Origin: Actinopolyspora lacussalsi subsp. righensis
Lineage (GTDB): Bacteria; Actinomycetota; Actinomycetes; Mycobacteriales; Pseudonocardiaceae
Direction of reading: 5' to 3'
Assembly (NCBI RefSeq): GCF_900116555.1
Contig: NZ_FPAT01000011.1
Coordinates: 1 to 64,000 of the forward strand
Length of the DNA: 64,000 nucleotides
Positions 35,616 to 44,576 of the stretch are shown piece by piece; the stretch's first letter is position 1; every line of letters starts with the position of its first letter. Both the position numbers and the translations under genes were made by a program. The notes beneath the pieces were generated by a model. That model did not search any database and had not been told where the DNA came from. It saw nothing but the letters and a program-made list of their open reading frames with translations.

Positions 35616-36474
35616 GCTTTTCCGGCAGCTGCCGACACGTTTCGATCAGCCGCTGCCGCAGCACGCCCGCTCGTTCGGCGTACGCCCGCTGGTAGCGGAC
35701 GTACTCCGCACGACCCGCGGTGGTTTCGATCTCGACGGGGGAGTAGCCCAGTTCGCCGAGATCGTAGGGACTGGCGCGCATGTCCAGCTCGCGGATCTCG
35801 GCGGCGAGCTCGAAGGCGTCGGCCGTCAGCTCGGCGGGCACGAGCGGGTCGAGCTTGTAGCACCACTTGAAGATGTCCATGTTGTTGTGCAGACAGCCCG
35901 GCTGTTCGAGGTTCACCCGGTCCTGCTGGGTGGGCTGCAACGTGTTGCGCGGCCGGGCGGCCGTGCTGAAGAACCGGAACGCGTCGTAGTGGCTGCACTG
36001 GATGCGCATCGACTCCACGACTTCGTTCGTGCCCTGGACACCCAGGCGCAGCGGCCATTCCGAGTGCCGCAACTCGTCCTGGGTGAGTCGGTAGACCATG
36101 GCCCACTCGTGCAGCCCGAAGCATCCCAGCTGTGCCGGTCGTGATTCCGTGGCACTCAGCAGGCGGTGCACGAAATCGGCGGTGTCGAGCAGCCGCGGGG
36201 TCAGCGCTTCGGGGGACACCATCACGCCGTCCGGCGTCTCGGTGTAGCCGCTTCGGTCGAGGAACTTCGCGCCGCCCTCCAGCACCACGCCGAAACCCGG
36301 CTGCCAGCGCTCCAGCCTCGACGGGCGCTGGGTGTAATACGTGAAGAGGAAGTCCATCACCGGGTGCTTCTCGCCGCGCCGCTGCCGTTCGCGGTGCGGT
36401 TCGGTGTATAACCTCATGCGCTCCTGAAATACGCGTTCGCGTTCCTGCCATTCCTCTTGGGTGAGGACAACCAC
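35605..36474 (-). CDS. Conserved actinobacterial protein (often labelled 3-methyladenine DNA glycosylase), 5' end replaced by the island
   Basis: The 289-residue protein has the conserved core ERQRRGEKHPVMDFLFTYY, then LERWQPGFGVVLEGG, QLGCFGLHEWAMVYR, QCSHYDAFRFF, EQPGCLHNNMDIFKW, ELDMRASPYDLGELGY and IETTAGRAEYVRYQRAYAE. I recall this family being annotated as 3-methyladenine glycosylase, but no helix-hairpin-helix glycosylase motif is visible, so the function is unproven. The first 25 residues or so (VVLTQEEWQERERVFQERM) come from the integrated element: the direct repeat begins at 36399 and a second, host-type 5' end for the same gene lies 8 kb away at 44304-44576. The gene therefore seems to be kept intact by a substitute start and promoter supplied by the element. 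Confidence 0.8.
   Translation of the reverse strand: MVVLTQEEWQERERVFQERMRLYTEPHRERQRRGEKHPVMDFLFTYYTQRPSRLERWQPGFGVVLEGGAKFLDRSGYTETPDGVMVSPEALTPRLLDTADFVHRLLSATESRPAQLGCFGLHEWAMVYRLTQDELRHSEWPLRLGVQGTNEVVESMRIQCSHYDAFRFFSTAARPRNTLQPTQQDRVNLEQPGCLHNNMDIFKWCYKLDPLVPAELTADAFELAAEIRELDMRASPYDLGELGYSPVEIETTAGRAEYVRYQRAYAERAGVLRQRLIETCRQLPEKHVG
36333..36399. repeat. Left boundary direct repeat (attachment site) of the island
   Basis: Positions 36341-36399 (59 nt) are identical to 44419-44477 in the same orientation; allowing one mismatch at 36340 the match extends to 67 nt from 36333. It encodes the conserved core of the target gene (residues ERQRRGEKHPVMDFLFTYY on the minus strand). Confidence 0.9.
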
Positions 36475-36495
36475 CGCCCTGCTCCCTCCTTGAAG

Positions 36496-37002
36496 TCAGC
36501 ACGATGTCAGCACGGTGTCGGCGCGTGCTGACCAGTCTTCGATTGCGGCCTGCATGGTCTGCCTCATGCGTTCCGGTGCATTCTCCACCAGGTGTCCGTA
36601 GGTGTCGGCCGTAACGTGGATCGACCGTGCCCGAGCCACCGGGAGACTTCGTGTAGCGAGACACCGTCAGAGAGTGCGGTAGACGCGAACCAGTGCCGCA
36701 AGGCGTGCGGATTGTACGGCAGACCCAGCCCCTCCCGTACAGCTCTCTTCCGAACATGCTGAAAGTCGTTTCCGCTCACCACACGGCCAAGATCAGAGGG
36801 AAAGTACAGACCTTCGTGTCGTCGATCGTACGAGTGTCGTACTCACGGTATGTTCGCTCATCGCTTCCGCGAGGAACGAAGGCAGGGGGATGTCCCGGTA
36901 GTCTCCTTCGGCACGTGCTTCGAGGGGACGAGTCCTGCCTTCTTGTTGCCGTGCTCATCGATGACTTCTCCGGCCTGCCATCGGATACGTAACGTCTCGT
37001 CC
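36496..37002 (-). pseudogene. Tyrosine recombinase (integrase), truncated and frameshifted
   Basis: Reading the minus strand in three successive frames rebuilds the C-terminal half of a phage-type integrase: ETLRIRWQAGEV, then EGDYRDIPLPSFLAEAMSEH, then EGLYFPSDLGRVVSGNDF, PHALRHWFASTAL (the HxxR of the active site), LHEVSRWLGHG, and, after another frame change at about 36633, ADTYGHLVENAPERM with the nucleophilic Tyr. The stop is at 36496. At least three frame disruptions occur and the N-terminal half (arm-binding and core-binding domains) is missing. It must be non-functional. It was probably the enzyme that placed the element at the flanking repeats. Confidence 0.85.
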
Positions 37003-37023
37003 CGCTCGCAGTCCTCCGAGACT

Positions 37024-37240
37024 GCCAGAGCTTCCGAGGTGGGACGACATACCGCACGAGCTCTACACGCGAGAGTCCGGTGACTACCGGAAGGACTCGA
37101 TGGTCAAGCTGGAGCTGTTCGACCGGCACATCCGAGATGGCTACCGAGTTTGCTGCGTCTTGGACGATCGTGCCCACGTCGTAGAAGCGTGGCGGTCGAT
37201 CGGTCTGACCTGTCTACAGGCGGCCGAAGGCAATTTCTGA
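37024..37240 (+). pseudogene. Fragment of a HAD-type phosphatase (polynucleotide-kinase phosphatase-like), C-terminal end
   Basis: The frame reads ELPRWDDIPHELYTRESG, DYRKDSMVKLELFDRHI, YRVCCVLDDRAHVVEAW and GLTCLQAAEGNF before a stop at 37238-37240. These match the last third of the HAD phosphatase domain found in T4 Pnkp-like 3'-phosphatases: the DYRKDS with a Lys, and VLDDR with the final catalytic aspartates. No start codon with a ribosome site and no N-terminal DxDGT motif are present. The upstream sequence is the decayed integrase on the other strand, so the 5' part has been lost. It may be the remnant of a nucleic-acid end-processing enzyme. Confidence 0.7.
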
Positions 37241-37307
37241 CCCATGACTCAGCCACCCCGCTGGCGGGCGCGGAGTGGCTGTCAGAAGATCGTATCCATC
37301 ACCGCGG

Positions 37308-37667
37308 TTACACGGGGTGCTCCGTGGTGGCGGGTTCTCGTGGAACCGAGGTCCACGTGCGTGTCTCGTTGACGCGTTCCTTGGCCCGTAGGGCTTGGTC
37401 GAGGTCGGTGTCGAGGCGGTTGGCGATGGCACAGAGGTAGATGAAGATGTCGGCGAGTTCGTCGCCGACGTTGCTCGTCGCCGAACCGGCCTCTACCGCG
37501 AGGCCGGATCGCTTGCGGATGGCCTTGCACAGTTCCCCGTACTCCTCGCCGAGTTTGAGGGACTGCTCCAGCACGGTGCTGTCGGTGAAGCCGCGTTCGA
37601 GTTCCATCTCGGCGACGTAGCGCTGGATCTCGGCCAGTGTCGCCTCGGCCGGGAGTGGTCGCATCAT
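37308..37667 (-). CDS. MazG-like nucleotide pyrophosphohydrolase
   Basis: The 119-residue all-helical protein carries the MazG metal motif LGEEYGELCKAI (ExxE-type EEYGE) near residue 43 and GDELADIFIYLCAIANRL with ExxD near residue 75. These ligands bind Mg for hydrolysing nucleoside triphosphates to monophosphate and pyrophosphate. ATG 37667 is chosen because GAAGGA lies 3-8 nt upstream; the frame runs further up without one. It follows the winged-helix gene by 69 nt on the same strand and is probably the last gene of the operon. In this setting it could remove an abnormal nucleotide. Housekeeping sanitation of canonical nucleotides is the alternative. Confidence 0.82.
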   Translation of the reverse strand: MMRPLPAEATLAEIQRYVAEMELERGFTDSTVLEQSLKLGEEYGELCKAIRKRSGLAVEAGSATSNVGDELADIFIYLCAIANRLDTDLDQALRAKERVNETRTWTSVPREPATTEHPV

Positions 37668-37736
37668 GGTCCTTCGAGGGGTCGGGGCCGGATGAAGCAG
37701 CACTGTATCGGCCCGTGCTGCTGTGGCGGGGAGGGG

Positions 37737-38927
37737 CTAGAGCAGCGTCAACTGAGCGTCGGTCAGCCTGTGCGGGGTGCTGGACCATCCCAGTCGGAGA
37801 GCGTCGGTGATGGTCGTGGCGTGGTCCGCGATGGTGTTGCGTTGATGCGGGGTGGTTTGGCCTGTCAGTGAGTAGGTCACGGTCTTGTCGGGTTGCCATG
37901 ACCACGTACCGACGACGTGGCCGTCCCACACGATCGTGGGGAGAACTTCGCCGATCTGGTTGAATGCCTGGCCTGCGGGCAGGCTACCGAGGTAGCGGGA
38001 CCGGGTTTCGTAGTACGCCTTGAAAGCCACGTCTTCGTGGGCGAGGAAGTTGAGGCCGGTGCGCCCAGTGTCGGTGTGTGGGTCGTCTGCGAATTCTTCC
38101 CAGCGGCTCTGTGACATGTAGGCCGGTGAAGTGCTCCACGGGGTGTGGAGGCGGATCCACTCGTCGGAGGCTTCGTGCATCGCGGTGAGGACTGCGGTAC
38201 GGCTGAGCCCGGACCACCACATCGCGTCGTTGATCGTGGCGGGACCGTAACGATCGAAGTAGGTGGTGATCAGTTCGCGGGTGGCGGTATGACGATCAAC
38301 CGTGGTGTCCAGCTCTGGGTAACGGTGGGCGGTGACCGCGAAGGTGCGGTGTTCTTTGTTCCAGCAGGCGGTGTCGTTGATGTAGGTGAGGATGCCGCGT
38401 TCCCAGGCCAGCTTGAGTGCCAGGCGAATCACCATTACCGGTCGGTGTGGTGAGGCCAGACGTGTCTCGATCGTCCGGTGGTGCAGGTTGTCGTCGCCGA
38501 GCATGGTGGTGATCGCCTCGATGGTGGCGCTGATCGTGCTCATGTCCTGCCCGGCACGGGTGATCGCTCGCTGAGCATCGCGTTCCCGGAAGTGGCGGGT
38601 CGCTGCGTGCGCGGCAGTCGCGAGCTTCAGAGGAAGGGTATGCAGCGTTTTTCGCATACAGCGCACGGTGATTAGGTGTGCGCGTGTGTCCGCGGCGAAC
38701 AGGTGGGTGGCGAGGTGAGGGGGTTTCCCCCGAGCGACGACGGTCGTGTAGGGGGACGGCAAGCGCGCAGCGTGTAGACCGAGGGTGGCGTTGCTGATGT
38801 CCACGACCGAAGAGAATCTGGTGCTAGCGGCCAGACCTTGACGGGAGAGCAGCCAATTCCACAGGAGCGCGGACTCGATGATTCCGAGTTCGCGCTCCTG
38901 CGTAGCGTTCGGTTCGGCACGGGCCAT
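37737..38927 (-). CDS. Winged-helix DNA-binding protein of the AlkZ/YcaQ (HTH_42) family
   Basis: The 396-residue protein fits the HTH_42 family, which includes the AlkZ and YcaQ DNA glycosylases that remove bulky or cross-linked bases and often protect producers of DNA-damaging natural products. Seen are LLSRQGLAA near residue 28, LGLHAARLPSPYTTV near 50, a winged-helix segment ERGILTYIND, then ITTYFDRYGPATINDAMWWSGLSR near 225 (quoted in part as YFDRYGPATINDAMWW), and the C-terminal barrel motif EVLPTIVWDGHVVGTW. The catalytic Gln-x-Gln/Asp of AlkZ is not apparent; the aligned place reads LGLHAARL. It may bind DNA without being a glycosylase. It lies 47 nt after the radical SAM gene. Confidence 0.78.
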   Translation of the reverse strand: MARAEPNATQERELGIIESALLWNWLLSRQGLAASTRFSSVVDISNATLGLHAARLPSPYTTVVARGKPPHLATHLFAADTRAHLITVRCMRKTLHTLPLKLATAAHAATRHFRERDAQRAITRAGQDMSTISATIEAITTMLGDDNLHHRTIETRLASPHRPVMVIRLALKLAWERGILTYINDTACWNKEHRTFAVTAHRYPELDTTVDRHTATRELITTYFDRYGPATINDAMWWSGLSRTAVLTAMHEASDEWIRLHTPWSTSPAYMSQSRWEEFADDPHTDTGRTGLNFLAHEDVAFKAYYETRSRYLGSLPAGQAFNQIGEVLPTIVWDGHVVGTWSWQPDKTVTYSLTGQTTPHQRNTIADHATTITDALRLGWSSTPHRLTDAQLTLL

Positions 38928-38974
38928 AATTGTGATGCTATCAGGCTATTGTTGCCGTTGTAGCAACGCCAGCG

Positions 38975-40285
38975 CTAGGCTTGTTTGTTCCAGCGCTGCT
39001 CTATGAATTGTTTGAGTCGGTGGTATGATTCTTCGACTTCGTTCCATTGCTTGGATGTGCCCCACCAGTGGCGCTCGTTGTGGTGGATGTGGAACTTTTC
39101 CCATTCGCCGTCCCAGTCGGGCTGGTGGTGGGTCCCGTGGACCGTATAGAGGTCAGCTTGGTCGTAGACCTGAGTTCCAGGGAGGGGCACGAATCGGAAT
39201 AGGGAGACGCGGGAGAGGTCTGAGCCGAGTTCATCGAGCAAGGTGATCGTGTCGTCGGTGGTAGCGTTGTCCTCTCCCGGAAATCCGTGGATGATAAAAA
39301 CCTTGGCTTCGATGCCAGCATCGACTGTGGCGCGGATAGTGCGTCTGATCTGGTCGCGTGTGGTGTTTTTCCGCATGGCTTTCAGGAGTGGTTCGCTTCC
39401 CGACTCCATGCCGTATTTGACTTCGATGCATCCCGAAGCGGCCATCTTTTTGAGTAGTTTTTCGTCAACAGTATCGACGCGGGATAGGGCTGACCATTTC
39501 AGGTTGAGGTCAGTGATGTTGTCGCAGATATCGCCGACTTTGTTCTTGTTGACGATGAAGTTGTCATCGACGATGGAGAATCCTTCGATTCCGTAGGTGT
39601 CGATGAGGTGTGTGAGTTCGTGACGGGCGCTGTGTCCGCTGCGGTATTGAATGCGGGTCTGTCCGGCCGCGCAGAAACCGCACGGGAACGGGCAGCCTCG
39701 GGAGAACATGACATGGGCCATCCGATAGTCGCGGCCGGCCAACCGATCGGACATCAGAAAATCTTCTTGCGGAAGAAGATGTCGAGCGGGAAGGGGAAGT
39801 TGGTCGATATCCCGGATCAATGGACGTGATGTTTCCCGTGTCAGCCGTCCCTGCTTGTACCACCACACCCCGGCTACGCCGTCGAACTGTTTTGTATCCG
39901 CTCGATTTAGGATCTCCAACATCGATTCTTCGGACTCGCCGTCAGTGGCGACATGTGCCTGGAAGTCTCGAATGCTTTCCCTTGGGTAGAAGTTGCAGTG
40001 CACTCCTCCCACCATGATCAGTGCGTCGTCCCGGATCGTAGCGGTCTCCCTGGCATGCAGCATATATCCATAGGTGGCTGAGCTTGCCAGACTGAACCCT
40101 ACGGCATCGTAGTGCGAGAGATCCATTCCCTGCGAAAAAGGGGTTACTTTTTCGATGGCGGTGACATGACCGGTTTGTTCGAGCACCGCGGCAAGATATA
40201 GCACCCCGAACGGAGGGAACTCTTTCCGGTTCTCCTTGAATCGGGCCATGTCCGCGACTTCCGGGTAAAGAAGAATAACCTTCAT
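38975..40285 (-). CDS. B12-binding domain radical SAM enzyme of unknown substrate
   Basis: The 436-residue protein has two parts. Residues 1-150 form a cobalamin-binding Rossmann fold: KVILLYPEV, FPPFGVLYLAAVLEQTGH, MVGGVHCNFYPRES and TDGESEESM. Residues 185-380 form the radical SAM barrel with the cluster-binding SRGCPFPCGFCAAGQ (Cys 198, 202 and 205), FSIVDDNFIVNK, KYGMESGSEPLLKAM and FIIHGFPGED. Such class B enzymes often methylate unreactive carbon or phosphorus centres, or rearrange rings as in oxetanocin biosynthesis. The ATG overlaps the stop of the kinase gene as ATGA, so they are translated together. The tail (HIHHNERHWWGTSKQW) is rich in His and Trp. Substrate unknown. Confidence 0.85.
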   Translation of the reverse strand: MKVILLYPEVADMARFKENRKEFPPFGVLYLAAVLEQTGHVTAIEKVTPFSQGMDLSHYDAVGFSLASSATYGYMLHARETATIRDDALIMVGGVHCNFYPRESIRDFQAHVATDGESEESMLEILNRADTKQFDGVAGVWWYKQGRLTRETSRPLIRDIDQLPLPARHLLPQEDFLMSDRLAGRDYRMAHVMFSRGCPFPCGFCAAGQTRIQYRSGHSARHELTHLIDTYGIEGFSIVDDNFIVNKNKVGDICDNITDLNLKWSALSRVDTVDEKLLKKMAASGCIEVKYGMESGSEPLLKAMRKNTTRDQIRRTIRATVDAGIEAKVFIIHGFPGEDNATTDDTITLLDELGSDLSRVSLFRFVPLPGTQVYDQADLYTVHGTHHQPDWDGEWEKFHIHHNERHWWGTSKQWNEVEESYHRLKQFIEQRWNKQA

Positions 40286-41070
40286 GAAAGATCACTCCGA
40301 CTGATGTGACTGATGCAATGACGTTGCTGCGGATTCCAGTGGTATGCGGCGGAGGTGAGTATGTCCGGCTGTTCATTCAGCAGCGACGAAACCGCAGAAA
40401 ACATGACCGGCTCGAATTCCTTGATGCCTTGGTTTGCGGATTGTTGCGTTGGCTCCCGGATCAGATGCGTATTATCCAGGATCACATCGAAGATGTCTCT
40501 GCTGCCGAAAATATCGAAACCATGCCGCTTTAGGAACATATTTCTTGTAGAAATGTCCTTGCCTGAAACGAGTTCAGCGCACCCATAAAGGTCATACTGC
40601 GGGGGGTTTCCTTGGGAGACGTAGCATTTCCAGGTCCGCGAGGTGGCATCCGAATCCAGCCACACGCGCACCATAGGAGCCTGACATGTCCACGCTATTC
40701 CCCAACTATCAATCACCAGTCCTTCGTTCTCGGCGGCAAGTTGAACCAGCCGCCTATCCAACTCATCATCTACTTCGCCACTCTCCCGTGCTTCCTGAAG
40801 ACGCTCGTGCTCATCGAACCACGCCCGATCTCTGGTAGAAGACACCCCAGTCAGCTCCAGAAGTACTTCTGTGGCGGATACATATCGATACCCCAAGGAC
40901 TGTGCCAGCAGGATGGCGTGGGTCGTTTTTCCTGCGGCGGTTAATCCCGAAATAGCTACATTTGGATACCTCTTGAACGAAAATTCGCTTTTGGTGTTCG
41001 GGTTAGAAGACAGCAGATAACTCACCTCTCCGTGTTGGCAATCGTCGCTGTGTTTCCGATCTCTCTTCAT
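40282..41070 (-). CDS. P-loop kinase, cytidylate-kinase-like
   Basis: The 262-residue protein begins with a polar stretch of about 35 residues and then the Walker A motif ISGLTAAGKTT (residues 40-50), followed by YRYVSATEVLLELTG, a DRAWFDEHERLQEARES helix, LVIDSWGIAW, WLDSDATSR (a lid-like region) and LKRHGFDIFGSRDIFDVILDN, quoted in part as FDVILDNTHL. The pattern resembles small nucleotide kinases such as CMP or adenylate kinase-type enzymes. It may phosphorylate a nucleotide or a related small molecule. ATG 41070 has no good ribosome site; a GTG at about residue 16 follows GGAGAG too closely. First gene of the operon and coupled to the radical SAM gene. Confidence 0.72.
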   Translation of the reverse strand: MKRDRKHSDDCQHGEVSYLLSSNPNTKSEFSFKRYPNVAISGLTAAGKTTHAILLAQSLGYRYVSATEVLLELTGVSSTRDRAWFDEHERLQEARESGEVDDELDRRLVQLAAENEGLVIDSWGIAWTCQAPMVRVWLDSDATSRTWKCYVSQGNPPQYDLYGCAELVSGKDISTRNMFLKRHGFDIFGSRDIFDVILDNTHLIREPTQQSANQGIKEFEPVMFSAVSSLLNEQPDILTSAAYHWNPQQRHCISHISRSDLS

Positions 41071-41252
41071 TAGGAGACCAGAGGTGATCGATGACGTGCA
41101 TCCTCTATTTGGGTGTCGTCAACGATGAAATAATCATCGAATTTCGACATTTTAAACATGACGACGTGACACCGAGCTTCGGTGCGAATTCGGTGTTCGG
41201 TGTGGATGGAATGCAGCCGGTTCCGACGGTGGCATTCCGGGCGGTTTTCCTA

Positions 41253-41576
41253 TTAGGCGTAGTGGCCTATCACCCCCACGGCGATCATCTTGATCGTGGA
41301 GATGGCGATGAGTGCCAGACCGATAGCTACGGGCCATGTCGGTCGCCATCCGGCCAGGCGCAGTCCGCCCACGCCTGCCCACCAGGTGAGGCAGTCCAGG
41401 GCGGCGAGGAAAGCGTGGAGCTTGAACCGGATTTCTTCGGGGTGGGTGAGATGTGACAGGAGGTCGGCGATGGTGACTGTGGTGATCCAGCCGCTGTAGG
41501 CGAAGGCCGATACCGCGAGGCCGGTTCCGACGCATTCGCGCAGCAGGATGGTGGTGACCGGGGAACGGCGACTCAT
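41253..41576 (-). CDS. Small membrane protein of unknown function
   Basis: The 107-residue protein starts at ATG 41576 with GAGGAGCG upstream. Three hydrophobic stretches are visible: GLAVSAFAYSGWITTVTIADLL near residues 19-40 (quoted in part as AVSAFAYSGWITTV), FLAALDCLTWWAGVGGLRLAG near 56-76, and AIGLALIAISTIKMIAVGVIG near 84-104. It therefore probably crosses the membrane three times. Small membrane proteins are frequent in actinomycete integrative elements, but I do not recognise this family. It lies 182 nt upstream of the kinase gene on the same strand. Confidence 0.6.
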   Translation of the reverse strand: MSRRSPVTTILLRECVGTGLAVSAFAYSGWITTVTIADLLSHLTHPEEIRFKLHAFLAALDCLTWWAGVGGLRLAGWRPTWPVAIGLALIAISTIKMIAVGVIGHYA

Positions 41577-41828
41577 CGTGATTCGCTCCTCATGAGGCGG
41601 TTGCGAGGGCTGGCTGCGTGCCGGACTTCTGTGGAAGTAGCCCAGGCCGAGTGGCAACAGGAGCGATCTGGGCCACCCGGCCGGGGTGGTGCCGTACGCG
41701 GAGTGGGGAAGGGAGAACTCCCGGCACGGCACCGGCTGGGGTGGCCCCCGACACGTCGTTGTGAAGGGGGCCGCGACGAACACGCGCCGGAGGTCTCTGG
41801 AGTTCGGCGGCGCGCGTTCGTGGTCTGG

Positions 41829-42215
41829 TCACGCGGCAGGTCGGGTATCGTGGTGGCCGGTCCCCGGTAGGTGAGAGCTACCGGGGGCTTCGTGTCCGCT
41901 GGGGTTGTCGGGATCGGTGGCGGGCCAGGCCGGATCGGAATCGCTGTCTTCGACACGCACCGGCCGCAGCCGCGGTAAGCGGGGCGGTAGATACCCGATG
42001 ACGTGCAGGCAGGCGTCGCAGACCGAGCGTTCGTCGTCATCGGGAGGGCCGCTACTCGCCCGACTGCGGAACGGACCATGCCGGGCCAGGTGCCCGCACA
42101 GTGCTCGCAGTCCCTCTCGGGCTTCGGTGTTGGCGGGGCAGGCGTGCCATTTCGACTCGAACACGCTGGCAAACCACCCGTGGCGGCCGGGCTTGCTCAG
42201 CGGGTCGGTCCCCAC
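41829..42215 (-). CDS. Cys-rich zinc-ribbon-like protein
   Basis: The 128-residue frame contains HGWFASVFESKWHACPANTEAREG, quoted in part as FASVFESKWHAC, then RALCGHLARHG and a CxxC in RSVCDACLHVIGYLPP. The arrangement CG...CxxC with a preceding His/Trp region recurs in other small proteins of this window (45059-45307, 61233-61454). The C-terminal part is proline-, serine- and histidine-rich and probably disordered. GTG 42215 overlaps the end of a short membrane-peptide frame and has no strong ribosome site, which suggests coupling. I do not know its function; a zinc-binding regulator or transfer-related factor of the island is possible. Confidence 0.5.
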   Translation of the reverse strand: MGTDPLSKPGRHGWFASVFESKWHACPANTEAREGLRALCGHLARHGPFRSRASSGPPDDDERSVCDACLHVIGYLPPRLPRLRPVRVEDSDSDPAWPATDPDNPSGHEAPGSSHLPGTGHHDTRPAA

Positions 42216-42280
42216 GCCAGCCGTGCCAGCACTAGGGCGAGCAGTACCACTAGTAGGATCGCGATCTCGGACTCTGACAC
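42197..42280 (-). CDS. 27-residue single-pass membrane peptide
   Basis: GTG 42280 follows GGAGGTGTG closely and opens a 27-residue frame: a short acidic start (SESE), a hydrophobic run of about 18 residues (AILLVVLLALVLARLAW), and a basic end (GPTR). This is the pattern of a one-segment membrane peptide. Its last 19 bases overlap the start of the Cys-rich gene in another frame. It is too short for usual gene callers, and a chance hydrophobic frame is possible. Confidence 0.42.
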   Translation of the reverse strand: MSESEIAILLVVLLALVLARLAWGPTR

Positions 42281-42313
42281 CACACCTCCCGAGCACCAGT
42301 CGCAGGATTGCCA

Positions 42314-42865
42314 CTAAGAAGGGCAAGAGCACGACTCGTCCTCCGTTTCCCTCGTAGCGATGGCTCCGTCCAACGCATCGCGGAGCTGCCGCGCTTCGGC
42401 GAGGCTCAACAGTGAGGCCACAGCCGGGGCGGGAGCCAGGATCGCGATGCCCTGAGCGGTGGGTTTCAGCCGCAGTTCCGCTCGGCCGTGACGCTGCTGG
42501 CGGCACGGCACGATGAACCATTCCGACGTGCTGGCCGTAGGACTCGGAGCCTCCAGGGAGGCGAGTTCGAGGAGCCAGGATTCGTAGGAGTTGAGCGGGC
42601 TCGGTGGGCGGTCGCTGCCCGCGATCAGATGTTGGAAACACACTGGGCAGTAGTGGTGCCGGTTGCCCACCACCCGCTCCGGCGGGTGCGGGGCGAGTTC
42701 GATCGTTTCGCCGCAGAAGCACGCCACCTTCCCGCGCCCCGCCTTCGCGCTGGCCTCGCCCTTGTAGGGCGCGGTGGCATGAATCGTCCACGAGTCCTTG
42801 CCGGTTACGAACCGGGGATGAGGTGCGGGGCGTTCAGTGTCATCAAGAGACTCAGAGACTCTCAT
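42314..42865 (-). CDS. Hypothetical protein with two Cys pairs
   Basis: The 183-residue protein (ATG 42865 with AGGTG upstream; a GTG at 42874 adds three residues) has an N-terminal ACFCGETIELAPHPPERV and HHYCPVCFQHLIAG, i.e. CxC and CxxC that could bind zinc, near residues 48-80. The second half has WFIVPCRQQRHGRAEL and a LLSLAEARQLRDALDGAI helix. I do not recognise the family. It is divergent from the XRE gene, with a shared 142-nt region holding repeated TGAGA half-sites, so both may be regulated together. Confidence 0.6.
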   Translation of the reverse strand: MRVSESLDDTERPAPHPRFVTGKDSWTIHATAPYKGEASAKAGRGKVACFCGETIELAPHPPERVVGNRHHYCPVCFQHLIAGSDRPPSPLNSYESWLLELASLEAPSPTASTSEWFIVPCRQQRHGRAELRLKPTAQGIAILAPAPAVASLLSLAEARQLRDALDGAIATRETEDESCSCPS

Positions 42866-42929
42866 TAGGTTCACCTAAACTTGTTACAGTCCATGACTGA
42901 GTGAATCTTCACTGTCGTGATCTGTAATG

Positions 42930-43004
42930 TCTCATGGTCATGTGAGATGTTCCAATACCCCGTTTGGGGGAATCACGTGAGATGTCTCAGCTCATATCCT
43001 GAGA
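42930..43004. promoter_or_regulatory. Cluster of TGAGA/TCTCA half-sites between divergent genes, candidate operators
   Basis: TCTCA at 42930, TGAGA at 42943, the pair TGAGA-TG-TCTCA at 42978-42989, CTCA-TATCC-TGAG at 42991-43003, with another TCTCA at 42860-42864. GTGAGATGT occurs twice, 35 nt apart. They lie just ahead of the XRE start codon and probably form its own operator. Confidence 0.5.
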
Positions 43005-43007
43005 ACT

Positions 43008-43847
43008 ATGCCGACATCCCCGCGCGCTCAGGCGCTCTCGAAGGAACTCAAGCAAGCCAGGACGGAACGAGGGCTGACCGTTCGTGCTCTGGCGGACAGG
43101 CTGGGTTGGAGTCACGCGCGTGTGAGCAGGATCGAAAATGCCAAGCAGGGGATTACGGTTGAGGATGTCAGTACGCTGCTGGGCTATCTACGGCTGGCGT
43201 CTCATGACCGTGATCGGCTGATCAAGATGACTCGGGATTTGAACGAGCCTGCCTGGTGGGAAGTTCACAAGGGAGTGAACTCACAGCTGGCATCACTGAT
43301 CGACGCTGAACAGCGTGCGCTCCGCATCACGTACGTAACACCAACCCTCGTGCCGGGGCTGCTACAGACACGCGCCTACAGCAGAGCTGTGTATGAAGCT
43401 GCTGGCTTTGCCGACCAGGAAATCGACGATGCGGTAGCGGTGCGGCAACATCGCCAAGGCATCATCGAACGGTCATCACCCACTGAGCTGGTCACGTACA
43501 TGGATGAGTCAGTCCTACAACGGCCAACCGGGAGTCGAGACACCGCAGCAGAGCAGCTTCGTTACCTCACCAAAGTCAACGAACGTGACAACGTTTTGAT
43601 CAGGGTTCTGCCGCTGACCGTTGGTGTTCATGTGGGGCTCGACGGCATGTTTTCGATCATCGCCATGCCGAATGGCAGTTCCACCGTGCACATCGAGGCA
43701 CCCAATGCAGGCGTGCTGCTGTCTGAGCATGAGGATGTGCAACCCTACGAAAGTATGCTCACCAAGGTCGAGGAATCAGCACTGTCTGCTGCTGATTCAA
43801 TGAAGCTGTTGAGCGAGTACGTTCGATACCACGAGGGCCTATCATGA
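43008..43847 (+). CDS. XRE-family regulator with DUF5753 sensor-like domain
   Basis: The 279-residue protein has an N-terminal XRE helix-turn-helix (LSKELKQARTERGLTVRALADRLGWSHARVSRIEN region, quoted as ALADRLGWSHARVSRIEN, about residues 10-45). The DUF5753 domain from about 95 shows TPTLVPGLLQTRAYSRAV, DEIDDAVAVRQHRQ-like text (EIDDAVAVRQHRQG), and VRVLPLTVGVHVGLDGMF-like text (RVLPLTVGVHVGLDG). Such genes are typically paired with a DUF397 gene in actinomycetes, as in the whiJ and bldB-related systems. It overlaps that gene by ATGA. TGAGA half-sites in front suggest self-control. Confidence 0.92.
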   Translation: MPTSPRAQALSKELKQARTERGLTVRALADRLGWSHARVSRIENAKQGITVEDVSTLLGYLRLASHDRDRLIKMTRDLNEPAWWEVHKGVNSQLASLIDAEQRALRITYVTPTLVPGLLQTRAYSRAVYEAAGFADQEIDDAVAVRQHRQGIIERSSPTELVTYMDESVLQRPTGSRDTAAEQLRYLTKVNERDNVLIRVLPLTVGVHVGLDGMFSIIAMPNGSSTVHIEAPNAGVLLSEHEDVQPYESMLTKVEESALSAADSMKLLSEYVRYHEGLS

Positions 43848-44026
43848 TCGAGTTCACCGCATGGCGGAAGAGTAGCCGCAGCAGCGCTTCCGGCAACTGC
43901 ATCGAAGTCGGGTTCGCTACCAACCTGGTTGGTGTGCGGGACACCAAAGACCGCGACCACGGAATATTAGCTTTTCCGGAGGCGCAGTGGCAGCGCTTCA
44001 TCGACGACGTGAAGCGTAGCTACTGA
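43844..44026 (+). CDS. DUF397-family small protein, partner of the XRE regulator
   Basis: The 60-residue protein has the DUF397 pattern: FTAWRKSSRSSASGNCIEVGF near residues 4-24 (quoted in part as WRKSSRSSASGNCIEV), VGVRDTKDRDHGILAFPEAQWQRFIDDVK with the usual VRDTKD and F..W..F (quoted in part). It begins inside the stop of the XRE gene (ATGA). In well-studied Streptomyces pairs the small protein modulates the regulator and acts in development or antibiotic control, and some pairs behave as toxin-antitoxin systems. Two hairpins follow, so the pair is a closed two-gene unit. Confidence 0.92.
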   Translation: MIEFTAWRKSSRSSASGNCIEVGFATNLVGVRDTKDRDHGILAFPEAQWQRFIDDVKRSY

Positions 44027-44030
44027 CGGA

Positions 44031-44073
44031 GACCACCGGACGCGGTTAGTCTTGGTAACCGCGTCCGATGGTC
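44031..44073 (+). terminator. First hairpin after the XRE-DUF397 unit
   Basis: GGACGCGGTTA (44038-44048) pairs with TAACCGCGTCC (44056-44066); outer GACCA/TGGTC extends it. No T-tract. Confidence 0.6.
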
Positions 44074-44096
44074 CATAACTGAGCATAGAGCACAGC

Positions 44097-44138
44097 AAAA
44101 CGTCTCGATGCCGCTCAGGCGCGGTGTCGGGACGTTTT
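44097..44138 (+). terminator. Second hairpin with A and T tracts, bidirectional terminator
   Basis: Arms 44097-44114 and 44121-44138 pair at about 15 of 18 positions (AAAACGTC...GACGTTTT at the base) with a TCAGGC loop. The terminal A and T runs allow use from either side. Confidence 0.7.
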
Positions 44139-44303
44139 CTTGGTTTGGTGAAGCCCTTGCGTCTCTCAGTGGTGTCGGAAGAAGCGGGCTGCGAGCCAGC
44201 TGCTGAGTAGCGGGATGCAGCGCCCCCGTCGTCCGGGGACGCTGTTTTGTGTCCGCTTCATGAGTGCTGAATCAGCACAATCCCTAGTAACGACGGGAAC
44301 CCG

Positions 44304-44576
44304 CTATGACAGACTGGGTATGTCATAACAAGGTGTCACATATTGCGCTGCGGGTTTGACTTCAGTTACTAGGGCTAGGGCTTCTGTGAGAAGCTGGTTT
44401 TGGTCCAGTCTGTAATAGGTGAAGAGGAAGTCCATCACCGGGTGCTTCTCGCCGCGCCGCTGCCGTTCGCGGTGCGGCAGCGTCCAGTGCCGCATCCGTT
44501 CCAGGTGAGCCTGTTCCCTGGCACGCCACGTTCGTTCGGACAGTACTTCGGGTGGCACGTGGGAAGGATAGGCCAC
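44304..44576 (-). pseudogene. Displaced 5' fragment of the gene at 35605-36474
   Basis: This frame contains VLSERTWRAREQAHLERMRHW followed by the same core ERQRRGEKHPVMDFLFTYY as the gene at 35605-36474, then runs into unrelated element sequence (RLDQNQLLTEALALV) and stops at 44304. It is the original start of the target gene, cut off by integration. The likely native start is GTG 44576 or 44558; no clear ribosome site is visible. Joining it to the left copy at the direct repeat would rebuild one continuous gene. The product would be a short truncated peptide. Confidence 0.82.
44411..44477. repeat. Right boundary direct repeat (attachment site) of the island
   Basis: Positions 44419-44477 are identical over 59 nt to 36341-36399, same orientation. 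With one mismatch (G at 44418) the match reaches 44411. Confidence 0.9.

Follow-up and report, generated by a model that had tools for sequence, protein, structure and literature searches.

The DNA studied here is a stretch of 64,000 nucleotides from Actinopolyspora lacussalsi subsp. righensis (contig NZ_FPAT01000011.1, positions 1 to 64,000), which is called the window below. A cassette of four genes lies on its minus strand between positions 37308 and 41070. It encodes a nucleoside monophosphate (NMP) kinase, a B12-binding radical S-adenosylmethionine enzyme (rSAM), an AlkZ-like protein and a MazG-like nucleoside triphosphate (NTP) pyrophosphohydrolase (Table 1). The kinase and rSAM open reading frames (ORFs) overlap by 4 nt (ATGA), and 47 nt separate rSAM from the AlkZ-like gene. 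A first-pass annotation of this DNA had described the families, the common strand and both of these spacings, and they were borne out by the ORF coordinates and by Pfam. The 69-nt gap it gave between AlkZ and MazG is correct for an ATG start at 37667, which is the more likely one; from the GTG start the gap is 33 nt. It had also placed the genes in an island of lower guanine-plus-cytosine (GC) content. The GC content is 51.8% for the kinase, 55.1% for rSAM, 63.5% for AlkZ and 65.2% for MazG. Since the latter two are near the 66.0% of the whole window, the description is true mainly of the kinase and rSAM genes, and the composition of the cassette is a mosaic.

The cassette is cargo of a mobile island of 8 kb (about 36400-44410), which is bounded by two copies of a 67-bp direct repeat and carries the remnant of a tyrosine recombinase at its left end. 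In the genome G005 of the same species, the cassette is absent and a single repeat copy stands in an uninterrupted stretch.

Table 1. The four cassette genes and the other features of the island in the window
Feature	Position	Strand	Evidence
P-loop NMP kinase, Cmk-like type, 262 aa	40282..41070	-	Pfam Cytidylate_kin2 3.1e-10
B12-binding radical SAM enzyme (rSAM), 436 aa	38975..40285	-	Radical_SAM 2.9e-16 and B12-binding 2.3e-9
AlkZ-like (HTH_42) protein, 396 aa, H-A-A-R motif	37737..38927	-	PF06224 2.6e-29
MazG-like NTP pyrophosphohydrolase	37308..37703	-	PF03819 6.5e-5; ATG start 37667 more likely
67-bp direct repeat, left copy, probable att site	36333..36399		59 bp exact from 36341
67-bp direct repeat, right copy	44411..44477		Repeat comparison
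Tyrosine recombinase (phage integrase) C-terminal remnant, frameshifted, left island end	36564..36782	-	PF00589 1.2e-6
Small ORF, unknown family, island chassis, outside the conserved cassette	41253..41783	-	No Pfam match; paralogue beside C5 MazG
ORF, unknown family, island chassis	42314..42874	-	No Pfam match; paralogue on C5
XRE-type regulator (HTH_31 and DUF5753), island chassis	43008..43847	+	DUF5753 2.3e-50
DUF397 protein, island chassis	43844..44026	+	PF04149 1.8e-19

The four genes form a conserved, real unit with defined edges. A scan of genome contigs with rSAM gave 22 loci, and further ones came from sampling the order, class and phylum; the order and class tallies refer to these samples of genomes and not to all genomes. 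Before counting, L026 (99.2% identical to L025) and L048, L049 and L055 (on the contigs of L018, L020 and L029) were dropped. The distant rSAMs of L033-L037 and of L056-L065, the latter pieces of about 3-4 kb only, were also dropped; no kinase, AlkZ or MazG was found at L033-L037 by tblastn. The final count was 23 non-redundant loci with an rSAM orthologue, the window included. The AlkZ-like gene is present in 22 of the 23, a nucleotide kinase in 17 (10 Tmk-like, 7 Cmk-like) and MazG in 16, with a Nudix hydrolase instead in 5 more. All four genes occur together in 16/23 loci. The first-pass annotation had said that its reading would gain support if three or more of the four genes regularly occurred together. 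They do so in 17/23 orthologous loci; the combination rSAM-AlkZ-Nudix occurs in 5 more. Some weak rows were kept in these counts. The kinase of L016 is shortened (137 aa), MazG of L030 is on the opposite strand, the contig of L028 begins inside rSAM so that a kinase may lie out of view, and L029 has a partial kinase and an rSAM broken by insertion. In L029 (7299-9486; Frankia sp. CIT1), kinase and rSAM share a reading frame and rSAM is interrupted over 0.27 kb, which may be a fusion or decay.

The order kinase-rSAM-AlkZ-MazG is constant in the actinobacterial loci, except for the reversed MazG of L030. On the AT-rich contig of L031, titled Bacterium 1XD42-1, the order is rSAM-AlkZ-Tmk. DNA similarity ends at most about 175 bp from the kinase start and at most about 85 bp from the MazG stop in the pairs L018/L020, L020/L021, L050/L051 and L050/L054. 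A longer flank is common to other pairs, for example L018/L021, L051/L053 and L053/L054. Two strains named Streptomyces griseocarneus (L024 and L028) have only the cassette in common at the sensitivity used. The ratio of non-synonymous to synonymous substitution rates (dN/dS) was 0.12-0.52 in 28/28 gene comparisons, and the cassette genes are under purifying selection. Chance neighbourhood was rejected on two grounds, the recurrence of the gene order in other genera and the loss of similarity beyond the cassette edges. Membership of a larger biosynthetic cluster was rejected as well; clustering of the neighbours of 22 loci gave no further gene common to most. A search of Rfam for an RNA or riboswitch beside seven cassettes found none near them, and its four matches lay elsewhere in the 7 loci.

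The cassette is rare and its distribution patchy. It was detected in 2/397 genomes of the order and 7/394 of the class (1e-50 and 1e-40), and most carriers are actinomycetes. Among 10 genomes of the genus, the orthologue occurs only in the window's own, and 7 of the other 9 have rSAMs of at most 27% identity. Two genomes hold two copies in different places (L053 and L054 in G521; L050 and L052 in G580). An origin from phage or plasmid was rejected. The rSAM orthologue was not found in plasmids (25 records, all below 60% identity) or in phages (only phage SF3, 28.6%), and none of the 114 stretches of viral contigs that fitted a pattern was a relative.

The kinase position is occupied by two unrelated types. 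The window kinase scored above the Pfam cut-off for Cytidylate_kin2 (40.9 vs 28) and below the NCBIfam cut-off for cyt_kin_arch (42.2 vs 102.1). Its Cmk-like relatives, with 44-49% identity, occupy the same position in L029 and L050-L054. Most other loci have a Tmk-like kinase there, as in L018 (Thymidylate_kin 1.8e-20) and in L030, which matched solved thymidylate kinases (3.7e-14). The kinase stop overlaps the rSAM start in both types, in the window and in several Tmk loci; the gap is about 50 nt in L050-L054. In the rSAM tree, from which L029 was left out, the window groups with the Tmk-type L030 and L016 (97/89 and 100/98), apart from the other Cmk loci. The Cmk loci form two separate groups on this tree and therefore two changes of kinase type are needed. 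The hydrolase is exchanged in a similar way. In the Streptomyces-type branch, a Nudix protein (Nudix 5.7e-22) follows AlkZ in the place of MazG. Two unrelated kinases and two unrelated NTP hydrolases occur in the same slots, and therefore a nucleotide intermediate is the best explanation. The substrate is probably a nucleotide, and the interchange gives support to the nucleotide theme of the first-pass annotation. L103:5299-11526 (G580, contig C7), perhaps a sister system for nucleotide modification, has the same Cmk-like kinase type (46%), with Ham1, MazG, a flavoprotein and an adenosine-deaminase-like protein as its neighbours.

The rSAM protein has the architecture of the B12-dependent rSAM superfamily, a B12-binding domain and then a radical SAM domain with CxxxCxxC at C198, C202 and C205. 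These cysteines are invariant in 15/15 aligned rows, and cobalamin binding is predicted. The structural model (predicted local distance difference test, pLDDT, 87.5) was nearest to MgmA (Z 29.4, 3.0 A, 365 residues), followed by AprD4 (29.0), CysS (26.6), OxsB (26.3) and TsrM (25.0). Viperin matched the rSAM core only (Z 13.8 over 195 residues). The best NCBIfam match was ApyD, an enzyme of ribosomally synthesised and post-translationally modified peptides (RiPPs), and AprD4 works without cobalamin. With such a set of fold relatives, the chemistry of rSAM is not readable from its fold. The comparison with OxsB in the first-pass annotation holds for the wider group of B12-dependent rSAMs and not for a special kinship, as MgmA and AprD4 are as close or closer. 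The window protein departs from the OxsB family in architecture and overall sequence; the OxsB chain has about 740 residues against 436, with 17% identity by fold alignment.

The AlkZ-like model (pLDDT 91.2) has the HTH_42 fold of the AlkZ/AlkX (YcaQ) glycosylases and belongs to the same Pfam family. It matched AlkZ (5uuj) with Z 30.9 (3.7 A, 353 residues) and AlkX with Z 27.4. Unlike in these enzymes, its second catalytic residue is Ala, followed by Arg. The Q-A-Q of AlkZ aligns with H-A-A of the window protein, and H-A-A-R is kept in 21/22 aligned rows, with H-S-A-R in L031. In PMC9040887, YQL is defined by QxD, AZL by (Q/H)xQ and AZL2 by Hx(S/T)(D/E), and PMC13303869 describes both QxD residues as essential in AlkX. 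The H-A/S-A-R subgroup lies outside YQL, AZL and AZL2, and therefore glycosylase activity is not to be assumed. The self-protection by base repair that the first-pass annotation had proposed is thus doubtful, with Ala at this residue in 22/22 sequences. AlkZ orthologues adjoin rSAM in 8/9 places, the exception being G717. There (L097:6467-12419), a damaged radical SAM gene of SPASM type and a Tmk-like kinase with a frameshift lie about 3 kb from an H-A-A-R AlkZ relative (51%). The nearest solved structure to the SPASM-type protein is cytosylglucuronate decarboxylase, and it has a partial pVip match. The G717 locus is perhaps a variant of the cassette with another rSAM.

The metal motif EExxE...ExxD of MazG is kept in 16/16 aligned sequences, and the nearest solved structures are small MazG-type proteins including YpjD and dCTP pyrophosphatase 1. 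Within the class sample, AlkZ and MazG adjoin rSAM at every orthologue locus. MazG orthologues stand with rSAM in 8/15 places and without it in 7/15. Such a gene, constant with rSAM yet persisting alone, would look like an antidote, and would look equally like a recruited housekeeping enzyme. One of these 7 is on contig C5 of the window's own genome, a second MazG copy with 85% DNA identity over the gene alone. The C5 locus (L096:6363-10188) holds this MazG, two paralogues of the chassis ORFs and an XRE regulator, without kinase, rSAM or AlkZ, and is thus a natural variant that lacks three of the four genes.

No description of the four-gene set was found in the open-access literature without preprints, which is weak evidence of novelty. 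The antiviral viperin (SAND) with CMPK2, and the prokaryotic viperins (pVips), resemble the cassette in that a nucleotide kinase accompanies a radical SAM enzyme; a CMPK2-like kinase adjoins about 15% of the viperin genes of bacteria (PMC11249213). Unlike viperin, the rSAM of the window carries a B12-binding domain at its N terminus and has AlkZ-like and MazG partners. Membership of the viperin family was rejected, as there was no PADLOC pVip match and only PDC-M51A and PDC-S35 appeared at E up to 0.1. The nearest catalogued pair is the phage-defence candidate PDC-M51, which also pairs a radical SAM protein with a Tmk-like kinase. PDC-M51A matched rSAM at 2.6e-11 in the window and 1e-14 in L031. 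PDC-M51 part B matched the Tmk-like kinase of L031 at 2.1e-11 and not the Cmk-like kinase of the window. Parts A and B of PDC-M51 match neither AlkZ nor MazG, and no paper naming it was found in the open-access literature. MazG and other nucleotide-modifying domains are listed as predicted, unvalidated defence parts in the DefensePredictor paper (PMC13092281).

The OxsB/OxsA system resembles the cassette in two respects, a B12-dependent rSAM acting on a phosphorylated nucleoside and a separate nucleotide hydrolase. OxsB acts on dAMP, dADP and dATP, as stated in PMC7074753. The oxetanocin system has an HD phosphohydrolase, whereas the window cassette has a kinase and MazG instead. The albucidin cluster was rejected as a precedent, since its minimal set albA and albB consists of two radical SAM genes (PMC7074753). 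The T4-like (gp56/gp42/gp1) and Z-genome (MazZ/PurZ) remodelling of deoxynucleoside triphosphates (dNTPs) combines a MazG-type enzyme or dCTPase, a base modifier and a deoxynucleoside monophosphate (dNMP) kinase. Unlike these, the present set is a cellular cassette with a radical SAM modifier and without polymerase-side genes.

The first-pass annotation had offered a mini-pathway or a defence system, and both are plausible. We propose that the cassette is a self-contained unit, passed on horizontally, for the synthesis, activation and removal of a modified nucleotide, whose most likely use is to block phage replication; we rate this proposal a little below an even chance. Phage defence as the purpose is a balanced judgement, which could go either way. 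Settings of genetic conflict favour it. In L025, a Streptomyces, a trio of rSAM, AlkZ and Nudix genes lies between BREX PglX (1664 bits) and BrxC/PglY (1332 bits); the attachment site of the window island holds a toxin with Imm1 in G001; and the same interval holds type III CRISPR-Cas in G008. The partial matches of PDC-M51 to both rSAM and the Tmk-like kinase, and the patchy distribution, also count in favour. The MazG-type hydrolase would convert the NTPs or dNTPs into monophosphates, and the B12 radical SAM enzyme would alter the base or the sugar. The NMP kinase, coupled to rSAM by overlapping codons, would raise the modified monophosphate towards the triphosphate, and the polymerase of an invader might take up the modified nucleotide. 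MazG would also destroy the end product on build-up. The AlkZ-like winged-helix protein may bind DNA bearing the product, for host protection or for action on the invader's DNA. We infer the order of these steps and the part given to the AlkZ-like protein. More tentatively, the cassette might be a B12-dependent analogue of viperin. The modified nucleotide would then poison phage DNA or RNA synthesis, with MazG or Nudix as the antidote and the altered AlkZ-like protein recognising product-bearing DNA. This would be a mobile immune system of exchangeable nucleotide enzymes, convergent with viperin and CMPK2.

Several results weigh against defence by a modified nucleotide. The BREX setting is found in one lineage, L025 and the nearly identical L026. 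No recurrent defence system was found by the PADLOC scan of 117/164 flank ORFs of the other loci. The PDC-M51 scores are partial, covering the rSAM core only at 41-52 bits, far below the level of true members. MgmA, a protein methylase, and AprD4, an aminoglycoside enzyme, are at least as close to the rSAM as viperin and OxsB are. The kinase was not found nearby in five Streptomyces-type loci and L023, and the AlkZ-like protein has none of the catalytic motifs QxQ, HxQ or QxD in its 22 sequences.

The main rival, which we hold to be unlikely, is a minimal cluster for a nucleoside antibiotic, like the two genes for oxetanocin (oxsA and oxsB). The rSAM product would be exported as a nucleoside, and the remaining genes would serve biosynthesis or self-resistance. 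It is favoured by the nucleotide substrates of OxsB, one of the fold relatives, by the predominance of actinomycetes among the carriers and by the statement of PMC9040887 that AlkZ-like genes often serve for self-resistance in antibiotic clusters. The locus L023:6626-10505 also fits it. This is the only rSAM orthologue without AlkZ, and it has a gene for a transporter of the major facilitator superfamily just upstream of rSAM; genes for a MazG-like protein and an HD phosphohydrolase follow downstream on the opposite strand. However, the L023 layout is one of 23, and neither transporters nor phosphatases are a recurrent feature of the loci. Among the matches listed, the HD protein is like the YpgQ/YedJ type and not like OxsA, and the conserved partner of rSAM is a kinase rather than a phosphatase. 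Moreover, neither a polyketide synthase nor a non-ribosomal peptide synthetase was among the 25 listed of 95 Pfam families from the same 117/164 flank ORFs.

A pathway of DNA modification or damage is quite improbable in our estimate. The rSAM and kinase would build or process an unusual base that the AlkZ-like protein reads or removes, comparable with phage hypermodification or the Z-genome, in which MazG-like enzymes and dNMP kinases act jointly. The rSAM-AlkZ pairing is constant in 22/23 loci including the AT-rich L031, MazZ is among the weak MazG matches (0.0067), and in L103 a deaminase, Ham1 and MazG accompany a kinase of the window's Cmk-like type. Against this, the cassette is not accompanied by a DNA polymerase, synthetase or incorporation factor, the phage, plasmid and viral-contig collections gave no orthologue, and modification of a whole host genome is unlikely from so rare a cassette. 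Finally, the cassette might serve in stress or scavenging and act on a substrate other than a nucleotide, such as a peptide, sugar or cofactor, with the kinase and the MazG-like enzyme as side activities. The nearest folds, a protein-glutamine methylase and an aminoglycoside dehydratase, and the match to the RiPP enzyme ApyD speak for it. It is very unlikely in our view, as two unrelated NMP-kinase and two unrelated NTP-hydrolase families share the same slots, which would be difficult to account for if nucleotides were not involved. The cassette is real, new, mobile and nucleotide-centred, and defence by a modified nucleotide is its best reading, at about an even chance.

If this reading is true, viperin is not a lone case, and small-molecule antiviral nucleotide systems evolved more than once, here with cobalamin chemistry. 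Cobalamin rSAM chemistry can add methyl groups or ring changes on unactivated carbons. The cassettes would then offer new chain terminators or DNA poisons together with the resistance genes that match them, and an AlkZ-like subfamily without the known active site would gain a role. Even as an antibiotic cluster, the cassette would rank with the smallest on record and would point to a new nucleoside.

The island occupies an attachment hotspot for integrative elements in the genus, in an interval whose flanks we take to be gcvP and a CorC/hemolysin-like gene. This interval (window 36333-44477; L066-L074) varies from about 1.4 to 18 kb in 9 other genomes of the genus, with different cargo in most. 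The sister genome G001 (L067:3229-4418) shares the island chassis and its left arm (95% over 2281 bp) with the window; a DddA-like toxin of the double-stranded DNA deaminase type and Imm1 fill the slot of the cassette. In G008 (L071:2933-14422), a type III CRISPR-Cas system with Csm3-like, Cas10 and Cas2 proteins and a reverse transcriptase-Cas1 fusion was found in the same interval, not at the same exact point. A partial copy of the CRISPR-Cas genes with an IS110-type transposase was seen in G009 (L070).

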